Shown in pieces: positions 48,639 through 60,706 of a stretch of DNA of 64,000 nt. The DNA lies in assembly GCA_902774115.1 (NCBI GenBank), contig CACYHH010000004.1:186001-250000 (forward strand). Reading direction: 5' to 3'. Within the stretch, counting starts at the first letter, position 1; each line of letters opens with the position of its first letter. The stretch comes from an uncultured Spirochaetales bacterium. Its GTDB lineage: Bacteria > UBP6 > UBA1177. The notes under the pieces are model-generated. The model did no database searches. It was not told the origin of the DNA and was given only the letters and a program-made list of their open reading frames with translations. The position numbers and the translations under genes were made by a program.

Positions 48639-51600
48639 CTACTGTAAAATTATTGTTTTGTACTTTCCTCCGAAACAGCTCGGTGAAGCACTCAGCTTAT
48701 TGACGCATTTTTTACAGTTTCTGTTGTCATACTCATCATAATCGCCCGATTCATCGTAAAAAACGACCTCAGCTTCAGAGTGTTCGCACTGAACGCTTGA
48801 ATCAGGTGAAATCTCGAATGTCTTTCCGCTGCCGTAAGCGATTTTCAGCTTTGTACCTGATGCAAAGTTGTGCGTTTCGGCAGCACACGAATGGATCACA
48901 TCGAGACAAGGAGTGAAAGTGCCGCAATCAAAGGTGTGTCCGTGATTTTCGTCTTTGAAAAATACAAAATCACCCTTGAGCGTAAAGTTGTTCTGATAAT
49001 TTTTCACTGTTGAAACGGAAGTAGTGAGAGCTTCCTTTCCTCCGCAGACAGAAGGCATTTCGGCATTCAAAGTTAAAGTATAATCGTTTTCGGAAACGCA
49101 CGCCGGTTTGTCAAAACGGACATTGAGAGCTTTGTTTTTGAAACTTACAGAGGCTTTGTCAGGCCTTTCATCGGAAGCAAGAAGGCAGTAGAGAAAGGAA
49201 TTTGCCGAAGACTGCGTAAAATTTTTAACATAGTTGCTCGTATCCGAAAAAGTTATGACCGCCTTCATATTCCTGAACTGACCGGCACTTTCAGCAGAAA
49301 GCGCTGAAGACAGTATGTTGTTTAAAGAGGATACCGGAACCTGATAACTTCTGCTTATGACAAGTTTTTCACTGTTATCCTGAAGGACACCGCCCAGATA
49401 CCTGCCGTAAAGATAAAGTTCTATATTTGAAATTTCCGCCATTTTTCCGGAATCCACCGTAAGTCTTACTTTGAAATTATCACCCGGATAAAGGAACTGC
49501 CCTTTTTGCGGCTCCAGAGAAAGATCTATATCGGACATATCGAAAAATCTGAATTCGGCGACATCGGTTCTTTGCGTCGAAGCCGATTTGCTTTCTACGG
49601 AAACCGTATAATAACCGCTTCCTGAAAGCATTGACGGCATAATATCCATACTGTTCGAGCAATCCGCCGAAAAAACCGTATTTCCGCGTTTCATTATCGT
49701 ACACTTGTAATCGACCCCGCTTTTTGTATCCCACCACAGATTCGATTTGCTCTTACTGGTAAAAAACTTTCTCGTTAAATTTATCTTCACAGGCTCTACA
49801 GGAGTAAAATCCATAGGTATCGTCAGGGAATGCTCCGAACGGTTGCCGACTTCATCGTAAGCTATGATCTTGAAGTTGTTGATACCGTCGACACTGCCTT
49901 CAAGATCGCAGTAAAATTCGTTGCATGTCCCGCCAATCACACCGGCTGCATTCGGCACATACTGACAGCTTTTTATCCAACCGGCTTCCGAAGACTGGAT
50001 GAAAAGGCGCATATCTTCGGGTGCGGAAAAATTATCCCCATATAAAAACAGGATCTGGGGTTTTCTGGGTCCGATAACCAGGTATCCCCCGCTGTTGCAG
50101 TTCGGGGCATTTAAGCAACGATTGACTGAAAAAGAAGATTCGGAATCTATACATTCGGTAAAAACGGACTTTTCCGTATCGTAAGAAATAAAAACAGGAG
50201 CCCGGTTATCTATAAAAAAAGAACCGAAAGAATCGCTGAAATCTTTATTCGTACAGTTGCCGACTTCATCGCAGACAGAGACAAAACCTCTGCATTCCAC
50301 GACCATGCTGTCTTCAGCCGGAGTAAGCAGATTGAAGAAATCGAGGCTTTCGTCTGCGGCGACATAACCTCCTGTCTTATCCTGAGAAACAGAGCCGTCG
50401 GAAACACCGCATGAAACCTTGAGCGCCCATCTGGCTACATCCTTGTCAGGCTCTATCAGAGACGCGGTAAAATAATTTCTGTTCGTGACACTGTTTTTAA
50501 AAAGCACTCTTCCGTCAGATTCAAGGCTGACAAGCGGAACTTCAGGCGGAGTCGTATCGACTTTGAACGAACCGTAGACCGTCGAACGGTTTCCGGCATG
50601 GTCGGCAGCGGCAAGAGTGATCTTGTAAAGACCGTCCGCAGCACTGCCGGGAATCCCGGCATCAGGCAGGGCTTCGGCAAATTTTTCAGCCGTAAAAGAA
50701 CATTCATCCGCAGCGCAGCTTTCCCTCTCTTCTTCAAAAACTACCGTTTCCTCTTCTTCCCATCTGGCAAGAGTAAATTTTATATTTTCAATCAGACTGT
50801 CGGAAACGCTCCACGAAATATCGACATCTCCGCTTCTGACGGTTCCTTCAGGATAATTCAGATTTAAAGAAGGTCTTTTGTTGTCGAGAAAAACCGTTAC
50901 ATCTTTTTCTGCGATATTGAAAGCTATATCCTGCGCCGAAACAGAAAACCCGACCTGTTTTTCCATCGGAACGCCGGAGTCGTCTGAATATTCGGCAAGC
51001 ATGGTAAATTCGCGGCTTTCGTCTGAAAATCCGCTTCCTTCGATATTTTGAGGTTCAATCCGCTTTACCCTGAAAACAAAATCGGCATATTTGCTCTTCA
51101 AGGTAACGGAATCGATATCGGCAAAACTTCCATCCTGAGGAGTTACCCTGAATTTAAGAAGAAAAGCCTTCGCGAAATGAGGTATCGGGCCGTTCTGAGA
51201 ATCATACTGAACAAACTCCCCTTTTGTGTAACTTCCCAGATCACCGGTTATATCGGCAATCTCTTCATCTTCGGTTTCAAAAAGGTCGTGAAAACCAAGA
51301 ATCTCTATTTCAGGTCCCGGAGAATCAACAGGCACAGGCACGCTTTCGGCGGGAAAAAGAAACTGATCGGAATTCGCTGCGATATTTCCGACAATACTGC
51401 CGAGTTGTGAAAAAACCGTTTCATTGAAAGGACTCGCAAGGAACCTCTTTATCGAAAGGGCGTAATAGTATCTGAAAAAATTGGGATCAAGTTCCGTTTT
51501 TTTATTGTCTTCACCGAAAAAAAGCTGTGTTTCACCGTTTTTTCCGTCAAAAGAAGTATCTTTATAATCTTCCTGCAAAAGCTGAAGAACATTGGAGACA

Positions 51601-53513
51601 TCGTAGATCCCGTGCTCCGAGCCGATATTCGTCTCCATGAAACATGCAAGGTATTCAAGCCCGGCAAGAAGAACAAAATATTTCGTCCTGCCGTCTGCGG
51701 CATTCGTATCAAAAGGCTCTTCGTTCCAGTCAAACGCATGGCTCAAGTGCAGGGACAGGTGCTCTGAAACCAAGTTATAGAGCTCTTCATCGGAAACATT
51801 TCCCTGATTTCTGCGGCTCGTAAAAATATAAGCGCCGACTGTCGTAAGCGGCGTAACGACGACATCTTCATCAGTGACCGGAATAAATACAGCCGACAAA
51901 GTGCCGTTGAACCGTCTCGCTTCAGAACTTTCAGAAACTACCGGCTCATAGCTGCCGCCGCTTACAGTCACGATGCAGACTTCACCGAGTTTCACTGTTA
52001 TTTCATCGCCGGAAGAGCTCCTGCTGCCAGTTTTGCCCTCCGAAACACCGCCGCATGAGACCGAAACGCTTTCAACGCCGCCAAGAGGGTTTGTCACAAA
52101 AGGCTTCACCTTAACTGAAACCGTGTTTTTAGTATAAAACGGAAACGAAGTCCTGTATTCTCTCTTGTTAACCGAAACAGCACATTCAAGGATATTCTTT
52201 CCGTCCGGAAGTTTTTCGGTATCTACGACAGCTTTATACTGATAATCCGCGCTGCTCCGGTTTTCCATAGAATAACCTTCTATCGAGCATGAAACATCTT
52301 CGACAGAATATCTTTTGTGGCTTGCCTCGACCTTTATATCGATGCTGTTTCTTGCAGGATCATCTTCCGTAGCGGTTAAATCAAGAGTTCCGTGCCTGTA
52401 AAAAACGGCATGCACTGCAGGCGCGCCGTTATTAACTACTATCGTTTTTTCAGCGCTATTTACGGTTACGCCGTTGCTTGCTTCGCAGCGGATAACGACC
52501 TCTTTTTCGTCCTCGATATTTTCAGTCGTGAAACTTCCCTGAAAATAAGCCGCTTCTTCATCTTTGTCAGCCACTTCTTTCCCGTCGGCGGAACAGTTGA
52601 GCGTTACTATCATATTTTCAGGTCCCGCCTTGGCTTCAATTGCAACAGCACCGCTGAAATACTCGGGTTCAGCCCCCTTGTTTCCTTCGGGATAGACTTC
52701 TATCTCTATTGAAACTCCGCTTTTTTCAGTTTCTTCGCCGCCTAAAAATCCTGCTTCGGAAGTCCTTATTTTTTCACTCCATTCCTTAAGTTCGGCAGCC
52801 GAAAATTTGTCGCTGACTTCACTTAAAAAATCACTCATTAGTCCTTTCATAAAGGCTGCATTCACCGCCGCGCTCCCGAATTTTGCATAAGTCGAGCCGT
52901 TGATAACATTGTCGTCCGTGAGATCGTCATAAAGCATATTGAGCAGATTTTCTGTCGAGAACTGTGTCTCGGCCTGTGTACCGTTAGCGTCAGATACAGT
53001 TGCCGCGATTTTTGAGAAAGCCTGCTGCCAAAGCCACCGTTTTGCAGCATCAGTCAGAGAGTTCTGAAGTTCAGGAAAGACATCGCCGGTAATATCGAGA
53101 TATTCAAACCATTCTGACTGAGAGGTATCAGATCTGTATTTTTCGATAAAAGAAGAGAGAAAATCTACTACAACGACGATACTTTTTTCATCTGCCGCAA
53201 CCACGCTGCCTTCACTGCATCCGTTCCACGCGACAGCCTCTTCGGACGAGACCAGATCGACCGCTCCGCCGCACACTTTGACCTTGAGATCGCCGATATT
53301 CCGCACCGATCCGAAAACTGCAGCACCAGTCTCATCGGTTTTTCCCGACAAGATCGCATTTTTTCCGTCAAGAACTTCGACGGAAGCGTTTTTCTGAACT
53401 GATCTCACCGTCAGATCGAATTCGAGGATACCGTTGTCTGGTCTTTTGCCGTCGCACGAAACAGCACATAAAAAGAGAGCGGAACAAAAGAAAAAATAAA
53501 AAATCTTTTTCAT
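48639..53513 (-). CDS. giant Ig-like-repeat surface lipoprotein of the T4SS-like operon
   Basis: 1624 residues. The signal peptide ends AVSC with lipidated Cys at 20. The N-terminal third has carboxypeptidase-regulatory-like and helical segments. The middle and C-terminal parts contain repeated beta-sandwich units with the bacterial Ig-like hallmark: DHAGNRS near 970 followed by FKVDTTPP, DEVGNCTN near 1081 followed by FIDNRAP, and DEVGNRSE near 1221. Cysteines recur in pairs, especially in the last 150 residues (CKKC near the end), suggesting disulfides. Its start overlaps the barrel-gene stop (ATGA), tying it to the secretion operon as last full-size gene. It could be an outer-membrane surface adhesin, a substrate, or a cap of the machine. 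Confidence 0.8.
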   Translation of the reverse strand: MKKIFYFFFCSALFLCAVSCDGKRPDNGILEFDLTVRSVQKNASVEVLDGKNAILSGKTDETGAAVFGSVRNIGDLKVKVCGGAVDLVSSEEAVAWNGCSEGSVVAADEKSIVVVVDFLSSFIEKYRSDTSQSEWFEYLDITGDVFPELQNSLTDAAKRWLWQQAFSKIAATVSDANGTQAETQFSTENLLNMLYDDLTDDNVINGSTYAKFGSAAVNAAFMKGLMSDFLSEVSDKFSAAELKEWSEKIRTSEAGFLGGEETEKSGVSIEIEVYPEGNKGAEPEYFSGAVAIEAKAGPENMIVTLNCSADGKEVADKDEEAAYFQGSFTTENIEDEKEVVIRCEASNGVTVNSAEKTIVVNNGAPAVHAVFYRHGTLDLTATEDDPARNSIDIKVEASHKRYSVEDVSCSIEGYSMENRSSADYQYKAVVDTEKLPDGKNILECAVSVNKREYRTSFPFYTKNTVSVKVKPFVTNPLGGVESVSVSCGGVSEGKTGSRSSSGDEITVKLGEVCIVTVSGGSYEPVVSESSEARRFNGTLSAVFIPVTDEDVVVTPLTTVGAYIFTSRRNQGNVSDEELYNLVSEHLSLHLSHAFDWNEEPFDTNAADGRTKYFVLLAGLEYLACFMETNIGSEHGIYDVSNVLQLLQEDYKDTSFDGKNGETQLFFGEDNKKTELDPNFFRYYYALSIKRFLASPFNETVFSQLGSIVGNIAANSDQFLFPAESVPVPVDSPGPEIEILGFHDLFETEDEEIADITGDLGSYTKGEFVQYDSQNGPIPHFAKAFLLKFRVTPQDGSFADIDSVTLKSKYADFVFRVKRIEPQNIEGSGFSDESREFTMLAEYSDDSGVPMEKQVGFSVSAQDIAFNIAEKDVTVFLDNKRPSLNLNYPEGTVRSGDVDISWSVSDSLIENIKFTLARWEEEETVVFEEERESCAADECSFTAEKFAEALPDAGIPGSAADGLYKITLAAADHAGNRSTVYGSFKVDTTPPEVPLVSLESDGRVLFKNSVTNRNYFTASLIEPDKDVARWALKVSCGVSDGSVSQDKTGGYVAADESLDFFNLLTPAEDSMVVECRGFVSVCDEVGNCTNKDFSDSFGSFFIDNRAPVFISYDTEKSVFTECIDSESSFSVNRCLNAPNCNSGGYLVIGPRKPQILFLYGDNFSAPEDMRLFIQSSEAGWIKSCQYVPNAAGVIGGTCNEFYCDLEGSVDGINNFKIIAYDEVGNRSEHSLTIPMDFTPVEPVKINLTRKFFTSKSKSNLWWDTKSGVDYKCTIMKRGNTVFSADCSNSMDIMPSMLSGSGYYTVSVESKSASTQRTDVAEFRFFDMSDIDLSLEPQKGQFLYPGDNFKVRLTVDSGKMAEISNIELYLYGRYLGGVLQDNSEKLVISRSYQVPVSSLNNILSSALSAESAGQFRNMKAVITFSDTSNYVKNFTQSSANSFLYCLLASDERPDKASVSFKNKALNVRFDKPACVSENDYTLTLNAEMPSVCGGKEALTTSVSTVKNYQNNFTLKGDFVFFKDENHGHTFDCGTFTPCLDVIHSCAAETHNFASGTKLKIAYGSGKTFEISPDSSVQCEHSEAEVVFYDESGDYDEYDNRNCKKCVNKLSASPSCFGGKYKTIILQ

Positions 53514-54136
53514 ACTTTCCCCCAGTTATAATAGTTTACAAAGAATGCTGCTCCGAAAAAACCGAAGAGATCAAGCGAGTGATCGTGCGGCGACCACTTG
53601 TAGAGCACTTGAGTTGAAAGAATTATCCACTCCCACACTCTGAACTGAAGATCGATCCCGGCTGCGACCACACCGTTTACTTCCGCATAGTCATCCTTTT
53701 TGTAAGTGGCTATGCTTCTTCCCCGGCCGTCAATAAATTCGATGTCTGAAAAAGTCTCGACCTTGAAACCTCCTCCTGCAATAAGATGAGGCGAAAAAAA
53801 TGTTCCCGGAAAAATGTTGTATCTCACCAGAACAAGCGTCTGAACCCGCCAGTAGTCGAAATATTCCTTGCCTTTTATATCCTGAAATTCCGCTTTTCTC
53901 GAAGTATCGCCCACTCTCGTAAATGAAGGCTGCAAGCCTATATCGAAGTTGTCGGTAAGACCGAAAAACAGATTCAAACCCGCATTCCAGCTTGCATATA
54001 CGACAGTCGTCCTGTCATCGGTTTTAAGAGAAAACGGAAAAAATCCGCCTCCGCCGATATTTATCTGGATCTCCCCTTCTTCGGCAGAAAGTGCAAAAGA
54101 AAACATAAGCAAAATCAGAAAAATAAGTTTTTTCAT
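53510..54136 (-). CDS. predicted outer-membrane beta-barrel protein
   Basis: 208 residues. A cleavable signal (LIFLILLMFSFALSA) is followed by alternating hydrophobic and polar strands with many Gly and aromatic residues (GGGGFFPFSL, FDIGLQPSF, SPHLIAGGGFKVETF, FGAAFFVNYYNWGKV). This is typical of eight-strand-type porin-like barrels. No named family recognised. The start ATG 54136 lies one base after the VirB10-like stop. It could provide an outer-membrane exit or anchor for the complex, replacing or assisting the VirB7/9/10 pore. Confidence 0.7.
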   Translation of the reverse strand: MKKLIFLILLMFSFALSAEEGEIQINIGGGGFFPFSLKTDDRTTVVYASWNAGLNLFFGLTDNFDIGLQPSFTRVGDTSRKAEFQDIKGKEYFDYWRVQTLVLVRYNIFPGTFFSPHLIAGGGFKVETFSDIEFIDGRGRSIATYKKDDYAEVNGVVAAGIDLQFRVWEWIILSTQVLYKWSPHDHSLDLFGFFGAAFFVNYYNWGKV

Positions 54137-54137
54137 G

Positions 54138-55175
54138 CTATTCAAGATAAACAAGAAACGAGGTCCCGGCAGGAACTCTGTATTCCTGCTTCATTTTGTT
54201 TGCTTCTTCCTGCTTTGAGAGTTCGTCCGTTGCGGGATTCACCGTATTTGCAGCAGTCACTCCGGCCGTACTTCCGACACTTCCGGCAAGTCTGGTTAAA
54301 ACAGTACCTGCCGTTTTGGTGACACCTTGCTTAACTTCCGACTTGATGTTTTCATCGGCGATATCGGTCACTTCCGATTCGATCCCCGGATCTTTCCCCG
54401 AAACGGCGAACCCTTTGACCGAAAATTCGTCAGCACCGATGATCAGTTTTGAAAATGCAAGCTGAGTCCGCTTGTTGACAAAACTTTTAGCGGAACCATA
54501 GAACTTTGCCCCTTTCGGAATTTCTCCGACTTCTTCAAGAACTGTCGCAACAACGGTGGATTGAGCGGTAGAGCGTATCGAAAAATCGAGTTTGACCTTA
54601 ACTTTGACGTCGTGCAGGGCAAGAATTTTCTCTTTTTTCGCCTCATCTTTCCGCCCTTTTACAAAAACTCCGCCGCCGGAACTTTCTCCGCCGGGCACGA
54701 AATGCCTTTTTCTGCCTGTCTGAATGCCGCCCGAAGCAGCCGCATCGCTTATTTTTGCATAAGCCTCAAGGATCTCCCTGTCCTTTTCCTCATTTTTATT
54801 TTTTTTCTTCGGCAAAGCCGCATCTGTAGGAGCTTTGGCGCGTTTTTCTTCCGTTTCGGCAGTGTAATTTTTCTTAGATTTCGTACTATTCATCGCCGAC
54901 TTTATGTCACCGACAACTCTGCCGCGTGCAAGCTCGCTGAAGTCAGTGAATTTAACTTCTTCCGTTCCTTCCTTCTCCCGCTTTCCGCCGCCGAAAGCGA
55001 GCGCAGTAAAAACCAAAATTACGGCAACAAGACTCAGAAGCACCGCGTAAAAAGTAACTTTCCGGCGCAGAGCCGCATATTTATCAGCGTTTTCTTCCTG
55101 CTTAAAAGATACTGTTTCTGCGCTTTTTTCACTTTCAGCCAGAATTTCGAGAGGCGATTTTTCCTTTTTTTCCAT
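54138..55175 (-). CDS. VirB10/TrbI/TraB-like type IV secretion protein
   Basis: 345 residues. A short cytoplasmic N-terminus, one membrane segment near 40-62 (VTFYAVLLSLVAVILVFTALAF), a long charged periplasmic linker, and a C-terminal beta-rich domain. The end of the protein, VPAGTSFLVYLE, and IPKGAKFYGSAKS near 220 match the end of VirB10/TraB beta-barrels. VirB10 spans both membranes and gates the T4SS channel. The Pro-rich linker of classical VirB10 is replaced by a Lys/Glu-rich one. ATG overlaps the stop before it (TGATG). Confidence 0.75.
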   Translation of the reverse strand: MEKKEKSPLEILAESEKSAETVSFKQEENADKYAALRRKVTFYAVLLSLVAVILVFTALAFGGGKREKEGTEEVKFTDFSELARGRVVGDIKSAMNSTKSKKNYTAETEEKRAKAPTDAALPKKKNKNEEKDREILEAYAKISDAAASGGIQTGRKRHFVPGGESSGGGVFVKGRKDEAKKEKILALHDVKVKVKLDFSIRSTAQSTVVATVLEEVGEIPKGAKFYGSAKSFVNKRTQLAFSKLIIGADEFSVKGFAVSGKDPGIESEVTDIADENIKSEVKQGVTKTAGTVLTRLAGSVGSTAGVTAANTVNPATDELSKQEEANKMKQEYRVPAGTSFLVYLE

Positions 55176-56122
55176 CAAAACGACACCTTCAGTTCAAGTT
55201 TCCGCTTCTTTCCGGCACTTTCGTTCACTTCGATTATATATTCACGTGAATAGTCTTCGTCGCTTATTTTAAAGGCGATACCGCCGCTTACTATCTCGTC
55301 GAACTGCATGGAAAATTTGTCGATGTGATACTGCGCGTTGTCGATTTCAACCTTTCCCCCTTTTGTAGAATAGATCTTCACCGACTCTATGTGGAAACGC
55401 TGCCGGTAACGGTTTTTGACTGAAAAATTGACCGTAACGAGGGCATCTTTTCCGATTTTGCAGATGCGGTCGCTTCTTAAGAAAACAAGATTTTCTTCTG
55501 TTCTTGCAGAATAGCTGCTGCACTGGAAAAACTCGCTGAAAGATTTTGCCATCATTCCTATCATGTTTCTGTCGATCTCTTTTTTTATCTCCTTCATCCG
55601 CTTTTCGTACTTTCCTTCAAGCTCTTTCCGCAGCATTTCAAGGTGTTTGTTGACCGCTTTGTTTGAATTCTCCCACTCTGGATATGAAAAAATTATCCTG
55701 TTGCTTGCTTCTTCAGTCGGACGTATCACGAAATTGAAGATAAAAGCCTGACCTGAATTTATTTTGAACTGCACATTTGAACTTAAGCCGTACATCAGAG
55801 CCTCTTCGGGGGCTTCGCTGAATATGAGTCCCCACACTTTCATCTTCAAAGGTTCAGTTTCGACCTCGATTTTCAGAAGTCCGGCATCACCTACCGTAGG
55901 AGTTTCCGTAAGCGAGATATTTTCAGGGAACTCGAAAACAAAAACTTCACCCAAAGCGATGTTCACCGTTCTGTAAATCACAGTATCGCTGTTCTGTATC
56001 GTAATGACTGCGACTTTTTCCGTGATCGGGATAAATTTCGTCTTTTCCTCAACGCTCTCAAAATCTCTGCCAAGCGCATTCAATACAGTAGAAAAAGCTA
56101 ATAAAATCAAAAGTTTTCTCAT
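55175..56122 (-). CDS. VirB9/TraK-position secreted component
   Basis: 315 residues. A signal peptide (MRKLLILLAFSTVLNALG) leads into a beta-rich periplasmic domain (about 25-150). A charged coiled-coil-like helix follows near 160-195 (LEMLRKELEGKYEKRMKEI), then a second beta-rich domain (about 200-315). It sits between the VirB8-like and VirB10-like genes, the place of virB9 in P-type operons. Sequence resemblance to VirB9/TraK is weak, so the call rests on position, signal peptide and beta content. The ATG overlaps the VirB8-like stop (ATGA). Confidence 0.55.
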   Translation of the reverse strand: MRKLLILLAFSTVLNALGRDFESVEEKTKFIPITEKVAVITIQNSDTVIYRTVNIALGEVFVFEFPENISLTETPTVGDAGLLKIEVETEPLKMKVWGLIFSEAPEEALMYGLSSNVQFKINSGQAFIFNFVIRPTEEASNRIIFSYPEWENSNKAVNKHLEMLRKELEGKYEKRMKEIKKEIDRNMIGMMAKSFSEFFQCSSYSARTEENLVFLRSDRICKIGKDALVTVNFSVKNRYRQRFHIESVKIYSTKGGKVEIDNAQYHIDKFSMQFDEIVSGGIAFKISDEDYSREYIIEVNESAGKKRKLELKVSF

Positions 56123-56859
56123 TCAGCCTGCTCTTTTTCCTCTCCAATAAGATATTCTTTTCCGTTTTCAGTCAGATAAGCCCTGAGTTCCCTGAAATCA
56201 TCAAAACTTTTTCCGGTGTAGAAATCGACAAGAAGCCCGTCGGGAGAGAGTTCGAGCGATACAGGAACAACAAGCAGCAGCGCCGAAAACCAGACCAGAG
56301 TTTTCTTTTTTTCGTTCTCTCCGGAATAGTCTACGGCATTTCCGAAAGTCATCTCTCCCAAACCTTCGACAGTTACCGCTGAACCTACATTCAGCGCACC
56401 TTTCACGACTTTCAGCTTTGTCAGAGAGAACTTCGTTTCGAAATTTTTGTTTTTCCATGTTTCTATCTTTTCGTTATGAACTGACTTATCGAGAAGGATC
56501 TGCCTGAATTTAGGCGTCAGCATATTGTAAGCCTCTTTTAAATCCTCATCGATATTGGGACTCACGCCGTCGAATTTTCCGATAAAATCGGCAATAAAGC
56601 GGTGGACTCTGACAAGATTCGTGGAAGTTTCCAAAGTCTCGCTTCCTGAAAAAACCATCCGCCTTCCGTCTTTGTCGAAAGCTATTACCGGTGCGGGTTT
56701 CACCGATACCGACCACGCGAAAAGAAGGGCTGCGGCAGTGATCAGAAACATCATCAGACAGAAAGCAAAAGCAAGAATCCGGAAAAATTTTCTCATTTTT
56801 TCAATATCGCGATACTTTATTGCATCGAAAAATTTTGAAGCATCATCTTTTTTCATCAT
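56119..56859 (-). CDS. VirB8/TraE-like type IV secretion protein
   Basis: 246 residues: about 25 cytoplasmic residues, one membrane segment (ILAFAFCLMMFLITAAALLFAW), then a periplasmic domain. WSVSVKPAPVIAFDKDGRR after the membrane and FIADFIGKFDGVSP are like TraE/VirB8, which nucleate the inner-membrane complex. It overlaps its neighbours by four bases at both ends. Confidence 0.72.
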   Translation of the reverse strand: MMKKDDASKFFDAIKYRDIEKMRKFFRILAFAFCLMMFLITAAALLFAWSVSVKPAPVIAFDKDGRRMVFSGSETLETSTNLVRVHRFIADFIGKFDGVSPNIDEDLKEAYNMLTPKFRQILLDKSVHNEKIETWKNKNFETKFSLTKLKVVKGALNVGSAVTVEGLGEMTFGNAVDYSGENEKKKTLVWFSALLLVVPVSLELSPDGLLVDFYTGKSFDDFRELRAYLTENGKEYLIGEEKEQAE

Positions 56860-57746
56860 TTCATCCTGTAACGGTCAATATGAGCCGAAGTTATTGTCCT
56901 TATATTCGTGACAGCGTTTCTGATCTGCTCGGAACCGGCAGCCTTCGAAGCGAAAAGGGGGATCGTGCTTATACCGAGCCCCATGAAAATAAGACCTGAA
57001 ATCACCGAAACGGTGTCTCTGTCGATCCTGAAACTGTAAGGACAAGTACATATTTCCGAAGCGAGCTTCATGATTTCGACCTGTGCCTTACCCGTAACAA
57101 AGATAAAAACGGCGTAAAGCACAGGCCACAGGGCAACAACAGCGATTGAACGGAAAAAACCTCCGATTGAGGCAAAACCCTGATCGGGAAAGGCGGGGAA
57201 AACAAGCGCGAAGCATAATCCTACCATGTTAAGGGACATCAGAGTCCCCCAGCCGTATGAAAAAATCACCTCTTTTGCAGTCCAGACAAAAAGCATGAGG
57301 AGAAAGACTGCAAGTTTGCAGAAATACTGGAAATAAAAAGATGTGATGAGAGTCGTTCCCGCATCCCCCAGCAGAGGATCGGAAAACTGCGGACACGCTG
57401 ACGGAACACTGCCCGAAAAACCTGAAATCATCAAAAGGTTCGACGAATAAAGAGAGAAGGCTTTGAAAAACTCTTCGTCAAGCTCTTCAACTATCGGAAA
57501 ACGGTATGTGATAAGCATGATTTTTTCAATAAAATCAGGCAGATAGAGATAAAGCAGGATCGTAAGCGCTCCTTTCCACGCAACTCCTGCAAAATCGGGT
57601 TTTTCAGATTTCTGGATTTTGAAGATCTCGCTTACAAAACTTATGGCAAGCCCTATCGAAATCACGATGAAGACTACGCTCCACAGCCAGCCGGCACCGG
57701 CTGATTCAAGCAGGGTTTTAGGGTTGTAGCAGATGTTGAGATTCAT
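56856..57746 (-). CDS. VirB6/TrbL-like polytopic membrane protein
   Basis: 296 residues with about six membrane segments, including WLWSVVFIVISIGLAISFV near 20, a central pair near 150-185, and LIFMGLGISTIPLF near 260. A Cys-containing loop (VPSACPQFSDPLLG) lies near 110-125 and CTCPYSF near 236. VirB6 family members line the inner-membrane part of the T4SS channel and vary greatly in sequence. Position after virB4 and before virB8 supports the call. Start and stop overlap neighbours by four bases. Confidence 0.62.
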   Translation of the reverse strand: MNLNICYNPKTLLESAGAGWLWSVVFIVISIGLAISFVSEIFKIQKSEKPDFAGVAWKGALTILLYLYLPDFIEKIMLITYRFPIVEELDEEFFKAFSLYSSNLLMISGFSGSVPSACPQFSDPLLGDAGTTLITSFYFQYFCKLAVFLLMLFVWTAKEVIFSYGWGTLMSLNMVGLCFALVFPAFPDQGFASIGGFFRSIAVVALWPVLYAVFIFVTGKAQVEIMKLASEICTCPYSFRIDRDTVSVISGLIFMGLGISTIPLFASKAAGSEQIRNAVTNIRTITSAHIDRYRMK

Positions 57747-60088
57747 ATTTTATCCCTTAAAAATTCTTTCACAGCATCCATAACAAAAAGATTCTTTTTA
57801 TATGCGAGCAGAGCCGCTTCGGCACAGGCGTCGACAAGGTTGAGCCCCCGTGTTTCAGCGAATTTTGCAAGCAGTCTGTTTTCCTCCTTGTCGCTTGTCG
57901 CGACAGCGTAATCAAAAGGGGAAAGCTCGATCTTCACGACTTCCGATTCAAGATCCGCCCCGATCTGAGTTCTGAAAAGGACTGTCGAATACTCTCCTTT
58001 CACCGTTTTCAGACTTTCGAAAGCCTCTTTTTCCGCGGCGCTCAGACCGAAATCATCCGCAATCACCCGCTTTGCCTCTTCATCGTTCGCGTGACTCAGG
58101 AATATCGTTGTGGTCGTATTGATTTTGATTTTCGAAGAGAGCGAAACCTCTTTGAAACTGAGGAAATTCTGCGTTACCGTCCAGACACCCGTGTTATATT
58201 TTCTCGCCGTGGCGAAAAGCTCTTCTATAAGGTCGGCAAGACGCGGATCTTTGATAAGCTGTGCCGCTTCATCGAACACAATGAAGCTGTTCGTTATCTC
58301 GAAAGCGCTCCGTTTAGCCTCCTGAATGACGATGAAAGTCAGAAGTTCCTTCAGTTTTTCGTTCAGTCCTGAAATTCCCTGCAAGTCATAGATTACAAAA
58401 GGCTCTCCGCCGTAATCGACCGTAGATTTTCCGTTTATGATGCGTGAAACGGGATCATCCAGAAAACCGCGGAGAAGTCTTCGGATGACCTCTGCCTTTG
58501 CTGTGTCTTCGTCTTCGATAAAATCGACCAGATCTTCGAGAACAGGTTCGCTTTCAGCCGCATACATACTGCGTACCGCCTTCGAAACGATGTTTCTGAA
58601 AAGGTCTGCGTTCATGTTTTTTTCCCGGATTTCAAGAATGATATCAAGAATAGTATTCAGAAAGTTGAGTGCCGAGCTGTTCCACTTCCCGCCGGCATAT
58701 ACTTTATCCCGCTCCGGAAAAGGGTTTATCACGATTTTTCCGCGCGGATCTACAGGAATGAAAACTCCGCCGTAAAGTTTAACCATTTTCAGATAGCTTG
58801 AGTTTTCCGCTCCGGCGAAATCGACTATGAAGATACGTCCCGGAAAGTTTCTGTCGTACTTTATGTTCGGGAAAAAAGTGTGTGCGATGAGAGTATTCAC
58901 CGTCACCGATTTTCCGCTTCCGGAACAGCCGAAAATAGAACCGTTCTTGTTGTTCCGCTTTGAAGAACCGGCATCGAAACCGTAAATTTCCCCGAAACGG
59001 TTCCTTAAAAACAGCGGAAATCTGCCGTCGAAGTCTCCGTGTCCGTGTTTCGAGGCAGGGATCATGTCGATAAAATTTGCGCTGAGGATCCGGATCTGGC
59101 GTCCCGAAAGACTCATAAGAGTCGGAAGAGATCTGAAAAACTCAAGATCGTGCCCCCAAGTTTCCTCTTCAAAAAAGAATCCGCCGTTTTTCATGAAAAC
59201 AGATATTTCTTCAGCCCGTTTTTCAAGAAGTACCGGATCACTTTCGGAAACAACGATTTTTGCCGAAAGGAATCCGATTTTGTGCTTTGAAACGGTAAGA
59301 AGATTCATCAGCTCGTCCGATTCCTTCGCGTTTTTAGCTGCTCCTCTGCCGCTCGTCGCAATGTAGAAACGCTCTTTCGCTTCGAGAGAAAGGAGCTCTT
59401 TAGACTGCGGAAGCACAGTGAATGAAACCGAATAGGTGAAATTTCCCGAAAAAGTATCGATTATGCGGGAAACCATAAACGGATCAGTCTCTTTCGGCAT
59501 GAATTTAAGCGAAAGAACTTTGCAGAAAGTGCCGCCTACTTTGAAATATCCGGGAGCCGCCATGCACTGTTTCTGAATAAGTTCTTCACGGACGCTCATT
59601 TCAGGATGGATCTTCATCTCTCCGTTGAAAGATATGAGTTCATATAGAAGTTCCTTGATTTCCGCGGTGTCGAGGCGGCGCACACTCATCTCAAAACTCT
59701 GAAGAAGATTTTTGTGGTATGTGACATCCGGAGTGTCAGCCGGTAACCCGCTTTTCGGCAGATCGCTTGAAACCGCAAAAAAACAGCGGCTTTTTTTGAT
59801 CCCTCTTTTGCGAAGAAAACCGAGACGCTGCCTTATCACAGGCTCGCTTTCGGAAGCAGCGCGTTCTTCGACAAGTTCGTCTTCCCCCCGTATAACGGCA
59901 AAAAATTCGACAGTCGTCCCCTCTCTTGCTTCACGCATGAAAAACGAATTCGCCCTTTGAAGACCTGGCGAGGAAAAGTAGCTGTCGGCTCCTTCCGTTT
60001 CCCATACTGAAAAACGCTGCATCGAAGAATTGAAGATGAGATCCTCTTCGACAGCGGCTATTTTGAGCATTTCAAAAATGCTTTTCAT
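57743..60088 (-). CDS. VirB4/TraC-family type IV secretion ATPase
   Basis: 781 residues. Walker A FGCSGSGKSVTV near residue 390 and Walker B FIVFDEAAQLI near 604 are followed by LIEELFATARKYNTGVWTVTQN, the typical VirB4/TraC helicase-like pattern. The N-terminal 350 residues are the variable VirB4 domain. VirB4 powers pilus assembly and substrate transfer at the inner membrane. This is the strongest single sequence match in the cluster. GGAG precedes ATG; the start overlaps the VirB3-like gene by 17 bases. Confidence 0.9.
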   Translation of the reverse strand: MKSIFEMLKIAAVEEDLIFNSSMQRFSVWETEGADSYFSSPGLQRANSFFMREAREGTTVEFFAVIRGEDELVEERAASESEPVIRQRLGFLRKRGIKKSRCFFAVSSDLPKSGLPADTPDVTYHKNLLQSFEMSVRRLDTAEIKELLYELISFNGEMKIHPEMSVREELIQKQCMAAPGYFKVGGTFCKVLSLKFMPKETDPFMVSRIIDTFSGNFTYSVSFTVLPQSKELLSLEAKERFYIATSGRGAAKNAKESDELMNLLTVSKHKIGFLSAKIVVSESDPVLLEKRAEEISVFMKNGGFFFEEETWGHDLEFFRSLPTLMSLSGRQIRILSANFIDMIPASKHGHGDFDGRFPLFLRNRFGEIYGFDAGSSKRNNKNGSIFGCSGSGKSVTVNTLIAHTFFPNIKYDRNFPGRIFIVDFAGAENSSYLKMVKLYGGVFIPVDPRGKIVINPFPERDKVYAGGKWNSSALNFLNTILDIILEIREKNMNADLFRNIVSKAVRSMYAAESEPVLEDLVDFIEDEDTAKAEVIRRLLRGFLDDPVSRIINGKSTVDYGGEPFVIYDLQGISGLNEKLKELLTFIVIQEAKRSAFEITNSFIVFDEAAQLIKDPRLADLIEELFATARKYNTGVWTVTQNFLSFKEVSLSSKIKINTTTTIFLSHANDEEAKRVIADDFGLSAAEKEAFESLKTVKGEYSTVLFRTQIGADLESEVVKIELSPFDYAVATSDKEENRLLAKFAETRGLNLVDACAEAALLAYKKNLFVMDAVKEFLRDKI

Positions 60089-60356
60089 TTTTCACTCCGA
60101 TAAAGTCTCTCCGCTGGCGGCAGTAGAAAACTTTTCCGCCGTAAAACATCCTTAGAACGAAGATCCACCAGTCCGGTGAACCGGAAAAAACTCTTTCGCG
60201 GATAAAAAAAGTCACGGCAAAAATCACTCCCGGAAAGATAAGAAGAAGAAAAATATCCTTCAAAACCGCGCCGAAAAAGAAAAAAAGCATCATGACGAAC
60301 ACCTGACCTTTGTCGACAAAAGTCTGTTTTGTTCCCAAAATCCCGAAAACCTTCAT
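60072..60356 (-). CDS. VirB3/TraL-like small membrane protein
   Basis: 94 residues. Two adjacent hydrophobic segments (about 18-50: FVMMLFFFFGAVLKDIFLLL and on) and a basic C-terminus (FYCRQRRDF) match the shape of VirB3/TraL, which joins VirB4 at the inner membrane. It lies between the pilin-like and VirB4-like genes as in virB operons. The start overlaps the pilin-like stop (ATGA). Confidence 0.68.
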   Translation of the reverse strand: MKVFGILGTKQTFVDKGQVFVMMLFFFFGAVLKDIFLLLIFPGVIFAVTFFIRERVFSGSPDWWIFVLRMFYGGKVFYCRQRRDFIGVKNEKHF

Positions 60357-60661
60357 ATCCAGCCCGCGATAATGCTTAAAATCGTTGAAAAGGCGGCAAG
60401 TCCTGCACCAGCACCGAGGATTTTGAGAGCGTCCGACCAGATGTTCTGGTCTTTGTTGATATACCTGAAAAGAAGCGAGACTATTGCTCCGCCAAGCCCG
60501 CCGTAAATCCCGATGTATCTTGCGACATCGAAAACGGTGTCAGCCATCTCCTGAAATTTCGACTTTATTCCGCTGGTATCTGCAGCTGCAAATAAAAAAT
60601 CAGGGGAAGTCAAAACGACAATCATAAAAACAACAAGAACACTCAATTTGATTTTTCTCAA
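60353..60661 (-). CDS. VirB2/TraA-like pilin subunit
   Basis: 102 residues. A signal peptide (LSVLVVFMIVVLTSPDFLFA) would leave a mature protein of about 75 residues with two hydrophobic helices (YIGIYGGLGGAIVSLLFRYI; LKILGAGAGLAAFSTILSII). This is the size and layout of VirB2 and F-pilin. Start: TTG 60661 lies behind AGAGGTGA; the GTG three codons earlier overlaps this ribosome site. It is the first gene of the nine-gene unit. Confidence 0.75.
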   Translation of the reverse strand: MRKIKLSVLVVFMIVVLTSPDFLFAAADTSGIKSKFQEMADTVFDVARYIGIYGGLGGAIVSLLFRYINKDQNIWSDALKILGAGAGLAAFSTILSIIAGWI

Positions 60662-60706
60662 AATTATCACCTCTCAAATATTACAATTAGCAAATTAGCA
60701 AATTTA

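Follow-up and report, generated by a model that had tools for sequence, protein, structure and literature searches.

A VirB-type operon without a coupling protein on the chromosome of rumen UBP6 bacteria

A block of nine genes on the chromosome of an uncultured bacterium of candidate phylum UBP6 encodes a VirB-type core together with an outer-membrane barrel and a giant lipoprotein, which raises the question of what a conjugation-like machine may do in a genome in which no coupling protein is found. T4SSs without VirD4 are an established group that includes B. pertussis Ptl, Brucella VirB, H. pylori ComB and Bartonella Trw (PMC12857230), and the UBP6 operon resembles them in being a chromosomal VirB core without coupling protein. 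It differs from them in its VirB4 lineage, in that no VirB11 or VirB5 was found, and in the addition of the barrel and the giant Ig lipoprotein; furthermore, it spans an order of a candidate phylum, whereas each of the known systems belongs to one host-associated genus. The T4SS of Patescibacteria (PMC12102498) is likewise widespread, chromosomal, mostly without relaxase and thought to be co-opted, but it is a monoderm MPF_FATA system in which VirD4 homologues are common, in contrast to the diderm VirB9/B10 system of UBP6. The operon is thus a member of the VirD4-less T4SSs that is undescribed in the literature searched, and its surface module is common to plasmid systems that have gone unrecognised.

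The operon and its VirB-type core

The window, which is the whole 64,000-nucleotide stretch that was analysed, is part of contig C4; the source genome comprises 2.5 Mb in 15 contigs and is 99% complete. Several records matching congeners of the source genome are of ruminant origin. Positions 48639-60670 are filled by nine co-oriented ORFs on the minus strand, as the original prediction stated, and the base composition of this stretch is similar to that of the remainder of the window. The predicted overlaps between neighbouring genes are also present, but the 1-base gap proposed for one junction is not, as the eight junctions are all overlaps, of 4, 17, 4, 4, 4, 4, 17 and 4 bases (stop codons included). 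The arrangement is far beyond chance, because the gene order is conserved in every complete locus of the taxonomic order despite VirB4 identities down to about 40%. The sole variation in gene order is a swap of B9 and B10 in family f3, which also carries a second VirB8. In one genome (G015), VirB2 and VirB3 are separated by a Schlafen AlbA_2/HATPase regulator-like gene (L054:2988-4436).

The VirB4-type ATPase (781 aa, 57743..60088) matches TIGR00929 (2.1e-44), the TraG P-loop model P-loop_TraG (7.5e-15) and CagE_TrbE_VirB (2.4e-5) without reaching the curated cut-offs of the VirB4 models, and agrees with the original view that this gene is a clear VirB4 homologue. The VirB8-like inner-membrane protein (246 aa, 56119..56859) is recognised through its relatives, since 11 of 15 orthologues match Pfam VirB8, with a best value of 5.1e-7. 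PDB profile searches that started from the B10, B9, B8 and VirB4 alignments returned no useful match, therefore a comparison of predicted folds was needed. The AF2 model of the VirB9-like outer-membrane core protein (315 aa, 55175..56122), which was built from the orthologue alignment, has a pLDDT of 79, and its top six Foldseek matches in the PDB are T4SS chains of the VirB9/TraK/DotH type, the best being TrwF/VirB9 (4.7e-8). The VirB10-like envelope-spanning protein (346 aa, 54138..55178) consists of one N-terminal TM helix and a C-terminal beta domain, and its model has a low mean pLDDT of 61, but the beta domain that produces the matches reaches 83-93. All 23 PDB matches of this model with E<=2.2e-3 are VirB10-type complexes, and they include X. 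citri VirB10 (3.5e-6), DotG, TrwE, CagY and ComB10. In addition, VirB10-like orthologues match Pfam Transposon_TraM, the Bacteroidetes VirB10 family (7.5e-5), a match of the TraM/TrbI kind.

The three remaining core genes encode small or polytopic membrane proteins. The putative VirB2-like pilin (105 aa, 60353..60670), assigned mainly by position, is a single-copy gene whose product has an N-terminal hydrophobic, signal-like segment and a C-terminal hydrophobic helix. It matches the TrbC/VirB2 family at E=0.047 in the window, the orthologous first gene of another locus (L059) matches TrbC at 3.1e-6, and the mature region is almost invariant in an alignment of 11 sequences. The candidate VirB3 (94 aa, 60072..60356) is a small inner-membrane protein with two adjacent hydrophobic segments, and a search for a family match gave none, so that its assignment is based on topology and its place between B2 and B4; its orthologues retain size and place, and the B3 profile picks up positions 10193-10462 of L059. 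The VirB6-like polytopic inner-membrane protein (296 aa, 56856..57746) was assigned from five hydrophobic segments and its position, and its profile weakly matches B6 of L059 and L060 (35-41 bits) and of the Myxococcus plasmid MxC21-1 (15 bits).

Taken together, VirB4 and VirB8 are identifiable by sequence matches and VirB9 and VirB10 by predicted fold, and the identities of VirB2, B3 and B6, weakly supported by sequence, come mainly from gene order, hydrophobic topology and orthologues. The operon is a genuine T4SS core. The proposal of VirB2/3/4/6/8/9/10-type genes in virB order is supported by these results, including the structure predictions, in which the two models agree with solved structures of VirB9 and VirB10.

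Distribution, mobility and the search for DNA-transfer parts

The operon is present as a single chromosomal copy in 22 of the 25 genomes of its order, which is part of the uncultured rumen phylum UBP6. The barrel and VirB9 occur in an identical set of 22 genomes, and the other three (G021-G023) are without VirB4, VirB9 and barrel. One further genome (G002) apparently lacks VirB4 solely because its contig begins inside B6. With the VirB9 profile, about 360 genomes from outside the order yielded no genuine VirB9, and the barrel was found in none of 36 such genomes. A match of the B9 profile in one genome (G037, 2.7e-5) was rejected as spurious, as it falls inside a glycosyltransferase gene. Searches of phages and viral contigs gave no close relative.

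Median dN/dS values across the nine genes range from 0.03 to 0.21, which are approximate figures because synonymous divergence is high, and they indicate purifying selection on all nine genes; VirB9 is the slowest-evolving of them. In most of the genus the operon adjoins genes for a diacylglycerol kinase and a histidine ammonia-lyase. It is found elsewhere in four genomes (G013, G007, G005 and G016), two of which (G013 and G005) have the kinase-lyase pair without the operon. When compared to the window genome, G007 has 99% identical LeuRS and lyase but a VirB4 of only 74% identity, and the corresponding values in G005 are 90% for LeuRS and 63% for VirB4. At loci L051, L052, L055, L057, L155 and L157, the operon of some congeners is located at other sites and is diverged far beyond LeuRS and histidine ammonia-lyase. 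The simplest reading of these comparisons is that whole operons have been exchanged among UBP6 lineages, and have also been relocated. A strictly vertical origin was set aside, since position and divergence disagree with the core genes.

The original prediction, which made no mention of the known VirD4-less T4SSs, had also held that coupling protein, relaxase and VirB11 are missing, and the first of these absences extends well beyond the operon, because VirD4 (PF02534) has no match in the source genome and none in 24 of the 25 genomes of the order. Coupling proteins of the TrwB type are within reach of this search, as it recovered those of the single exception (G020), in which TrwB genes lie on two short contigs (C126 and C266; 4.7 and 3.3 kb in length), with a TrwC (MOBF) relaxase as neighbour in L090 and a TrwC-like frame as neighbour in L091. 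These contigs are unlinked to the VirB operon in the assembly, and a relaxase and VirD4 adjacent to the operon were not found in the related genomes. The absence of a relaxase holds for MOBP (PF03432, 0 of 25 genomes), the one MOB family that the genome-wide search covered, and has to be qualified for G020, in which TrwC was seen incidentally. Six T2SSE matches were obtained in the source genome, namely one below the cut-off, three long frames of PilB/GspE size and two of PilT size above the cut-off. Both PilT-size ATPases classify as PilT/PilU, not as VirB11, and one long frame classifies as PilB, the two other long frames being judged by their length alone. VirB11 was thus found, in agreement with the prediction, nowhere among the classified T2SSE ATPases of this genome, and the operon contains no VirB5.

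Predicted surface components and plasmid relatives

The last two genes of the operon are not standard members of a VirB set. The first encodes a small predicted outer-membrane beta-barrel protein with a signal peptide (214 aa, 53510..54154), which matches a TDE1717-family barrel at 1.7e-5, below the cut-off. The second encodes a giant multi-domain protein of 1624 aa with Ig-like domains and 36 cysteines (48639..53513), a predicted lipoprotein with a Big_13 match (4.1e-5) and, in all orthologues, an N-terminal hydrophobic segment and a lipobox-like Cys20. It is the fastest-evolving of the nine genes, with a median dN above that of all others and the lowest identities, and within the genus its identity is 45-81% as compared to 85-97% for B9. 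Most of the 36 cysteines are invariant in the genus, against 3-9 cysteines in the plasmid lipoproteins, which is odd for a surface protein in a bacterium presumed to be anaerobic.

The lipoprotein superfamily also includes stand-alone Vibrionaceae genes with no T4SS match within about 15 kb. Those of Vibrio and Photobacterium (L127, L128 and L131) are very large lipoproteins of 2215-3229 aa. The Burkholderia plasmid matches obtained with the lipoprotein are short proteins that adjoin T4P-like genes. Both groups rule out the superfamily alone as a T4SS marker.

The barrel and the lipoprotein had been regarded as two non-standard genes that complete the unit, and both are indeed present, but they are not private to it: plasmids of Myxococcus and Ca. 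Tenderia carry the two of them together with a VirB set. Among plasmids, VirB4 has its best match in pYRE of Myxococcus stipitatus (NZ_CP102771), which has VirD4, a VirB set, the barrel and a 1605-aa lipoprotein with Ig-like content, and one of its proteins is matched by the B9 profile at 40 bits. The MxC21-1 plasmid of Myxococcus sp. (NZ_CP123279) has a VirB set, the barrel and a giant lipoprotein, and the plasmid of Ca. Tenderia electrophaga (CP013100) has the order B2-B3-B4-x-B6-B8-B9-B10-barrel-lipoprotein, identical to that of UBP6 apart from one extra gene. The tblastn searches with the lipoprotein or barrel of the window gave no plasmid match, therefore this homology is visible only by profiles and gene order. 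Comparison of the UBP6 and plasmid sets with hhalign gave 100 for B4, 99.2 for the lipoprotein, 95.6 for B8, 94.1 for B10, 93.9 for B9, 60 for the barrel and 11.6 for B6, with every off-diagonal value below 2 and those of the barrel below 0.3, and residues 530-740 (approximately) of the lipoprotein match all three plasmid lipoproteins. By profile comparison, VirB4, B8, B9, B10, the barrel and the giant lipoprotein thus appear homologous one to one, although the barrel value by itself could reflect general barrel likeness and it is the gene order that carries the homology of this protein.

The plasmids differ from UBP6 in several respects. pYRE and the Tenderia plasmid have VirD4-like genes, the latter a weakly matching one adjoining the set, together with a MOBP relaxase according to PLSDB typing. 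An extra gene is found between B4 and B6, and both Myxococcus plasmids encode a protein kinase with the VirB10 domain fused behind it (L121:25489-27930 and L124:20386-22761, annotated 'protein kinase'). Both Myxococcus plasmids (L121 and L124) are non-mobilizable according to MOB-suite, yet both contain a VirB set and pYRE also VirD4.

In the VirB4 tree the UBP6 sequences form one clade (100/100) apart from the sampled F and T rows, in a tree that covers, of the MPF classes, F, T and one long-branch row of B. The Tenderia sequence joins UBP6 weakly (79/85) and pYRE joins Thermus (95/94), on very long branches, and the three plasmids and UBP6 form no clade. The UBP6 and plasmid systems are thus likely, but not proven, to represent a single new class. 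A more tentative proposal, which we put at somewhat below even odds, is that there is a class of diderm mating apparatus that has gone undescribed and has the barrel and the giant Ig lipoprotein as its surface end, that its members, most of them left untyped by MOB-suite, are scattered on plasmids of Myxococcota and Gammaproteobacteria, and that the UBP6 order made the apparatus a core, VirD4-free organelle for contact with cells or particles.

Possible functions of the machine

In the original prediction the machine was inferred to build a fibre or to move a cognate protein to the surface, and both ideas are still hypotheses. The favoured reading, to which we give a probability of about 50%, is that a conjugation (mating-pair-formation) apparatus devoid of the parts that recruit DNA is retained on the chromosome as a surface fibre or adhesion machine. 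VirB4, together with B3, B6 and B8, would drive extraction of the VirB2 pilin and its polymerisation through the B9/B10 core, and the barrel and the lipoprotein would form the surface end of the device, where the lipoprotein may substitute for the missing VirB7 anchor and VirB5 tip. As nothing would be recruited from the cytoplasm without VirD4, a contact fibre would be built or displayed instead of DNA being exported, and the variable Ig lipoprotein may determine what is bound, which could be neighbouring cells, feed particles or the host surface. Since the barrel and the lipoprotein also accompany VirB genes on plasmids, the machine looks like a domesticated plasmid apparatus.

This contact-machine reading is supported by the conserved gene set and order, the VirB9/B10 folds and the VirB8 and TraM/TrbI matches, as well as by the absence of VirD4 from 24 of 25 genomes and of MOBP from all 25, and by ATPases of the PilT type and not of VirB11. 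The co-occurrence of VirB9 and barrel (22/25), purifying selection and the fast lipoprotein also speak for it, and the plasmid homologues with VirD4-like genes, barrel and lipoprotein are consistent with it. Known systems offer precedents by analogy. In IncHI plasmids, Ig-domain proteins bind the conjugative pili and favour contact between cells (PMC8730810), and these RSP/RSP2 (Big) proteins are, like the UBP6 lipoprotein, surface proteins of very large size with Ig domains that are linked to a conjugation apparatus; however, they are exported to the medium, in contrast to a predicted lipoprotein, and the likeness drawn here is one of description. Adhesive pili have been proposed for the VirD4-less Trw system of Bartonella (PMC12857230). 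Trw has multiple variable VirB2 and VirB5, whereas the UBP6 operon has no VirB5 and a single, highly conserved VirB2-like gene. The latter counts against the contact machine, and the fast evolution of the lipoprotein could also mean loose constraint. Further points against it are the weak sequence support for VirB2, B3 and B6 and a genome-wide relaxase search confined to one family.

Other readings have to be weighed, each of which is possible because the known VirD4-less systems provide examples (PMC12857230). A two-step exporter resembling Ptl, in which Sec delivers proteins to the periplasm and the VirB core with the barrel then moves them across the outer membrane, is rather unlikely. Its substrate might be the lipoprotein or periplasmic proteins, and it would fit an operon that encodes a signal-sequence lipoprotein without VirD4, the uptake of Ptl and some Brucella substrates in the periplasm (PMC12857230), and the reported use of the conjugative-pilus export machinery by IncHI Ig proteins (PMC8730810). 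However, the operon, which is the same in 22 genomes, contains no further candidate substrate, and the stand-alone Vibrionaceae lipoproteins indicate that surface display does not always depend on a T4SS. It is still more doubtful that the operon provides mobile elements with a mating apparatus in trans, or that it is a remnant of a conjugative element, transferring DNA when an element supplies VirD4 and a relaxase. The VirD4-like genes of the plasmid relatives, the separate TrwB and TrwC genes of G020, and the several chromosomal positions and out-of-step divergence of the operon all agree with such a role, but a VirD4 match is missing in 24 of 25 genomes, and a single copy under purifying selection across the whole order argues for a host function. 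The least probable reading is ComB-like DNA uptake, by which a VirB2 pseudopilus would pull DNA into the periplasm and ComEC would pass it to the cytoplasm: H. pylori ComB is likewise chromosomal and without VirD4 and VirB5, and 23 of 25 genomes carry ComEC, but this reading is disfavoured because ComB needs VirB11 (PMC13395361), none of which was seen among the classified ATPases, and because the presence of ComEC does not follow that of the operon, ComEC being equally carried by the three operon-less genomes, and, moreover, the source genome encodes PilB and two PilT ATPases, through which uptake usually proceeds, and ComB has no counterpart of the giant lipoprotein.

To conclude, if the contact-machine reading is true, a lineage can keep, as a core organelle, the half of a conjugation machine that makes cell contact. 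The barrel and the Ig lipoprotein would then be two surface components that plasmid typing leaves unused, and therefore plasmids classified as "non-mobilizable", such as pYRE and MxC21-1, may be conjugative. For the rumen candidate phylum UBP6, this would be the first envelope machine to be described, as far as the literature searched shows.
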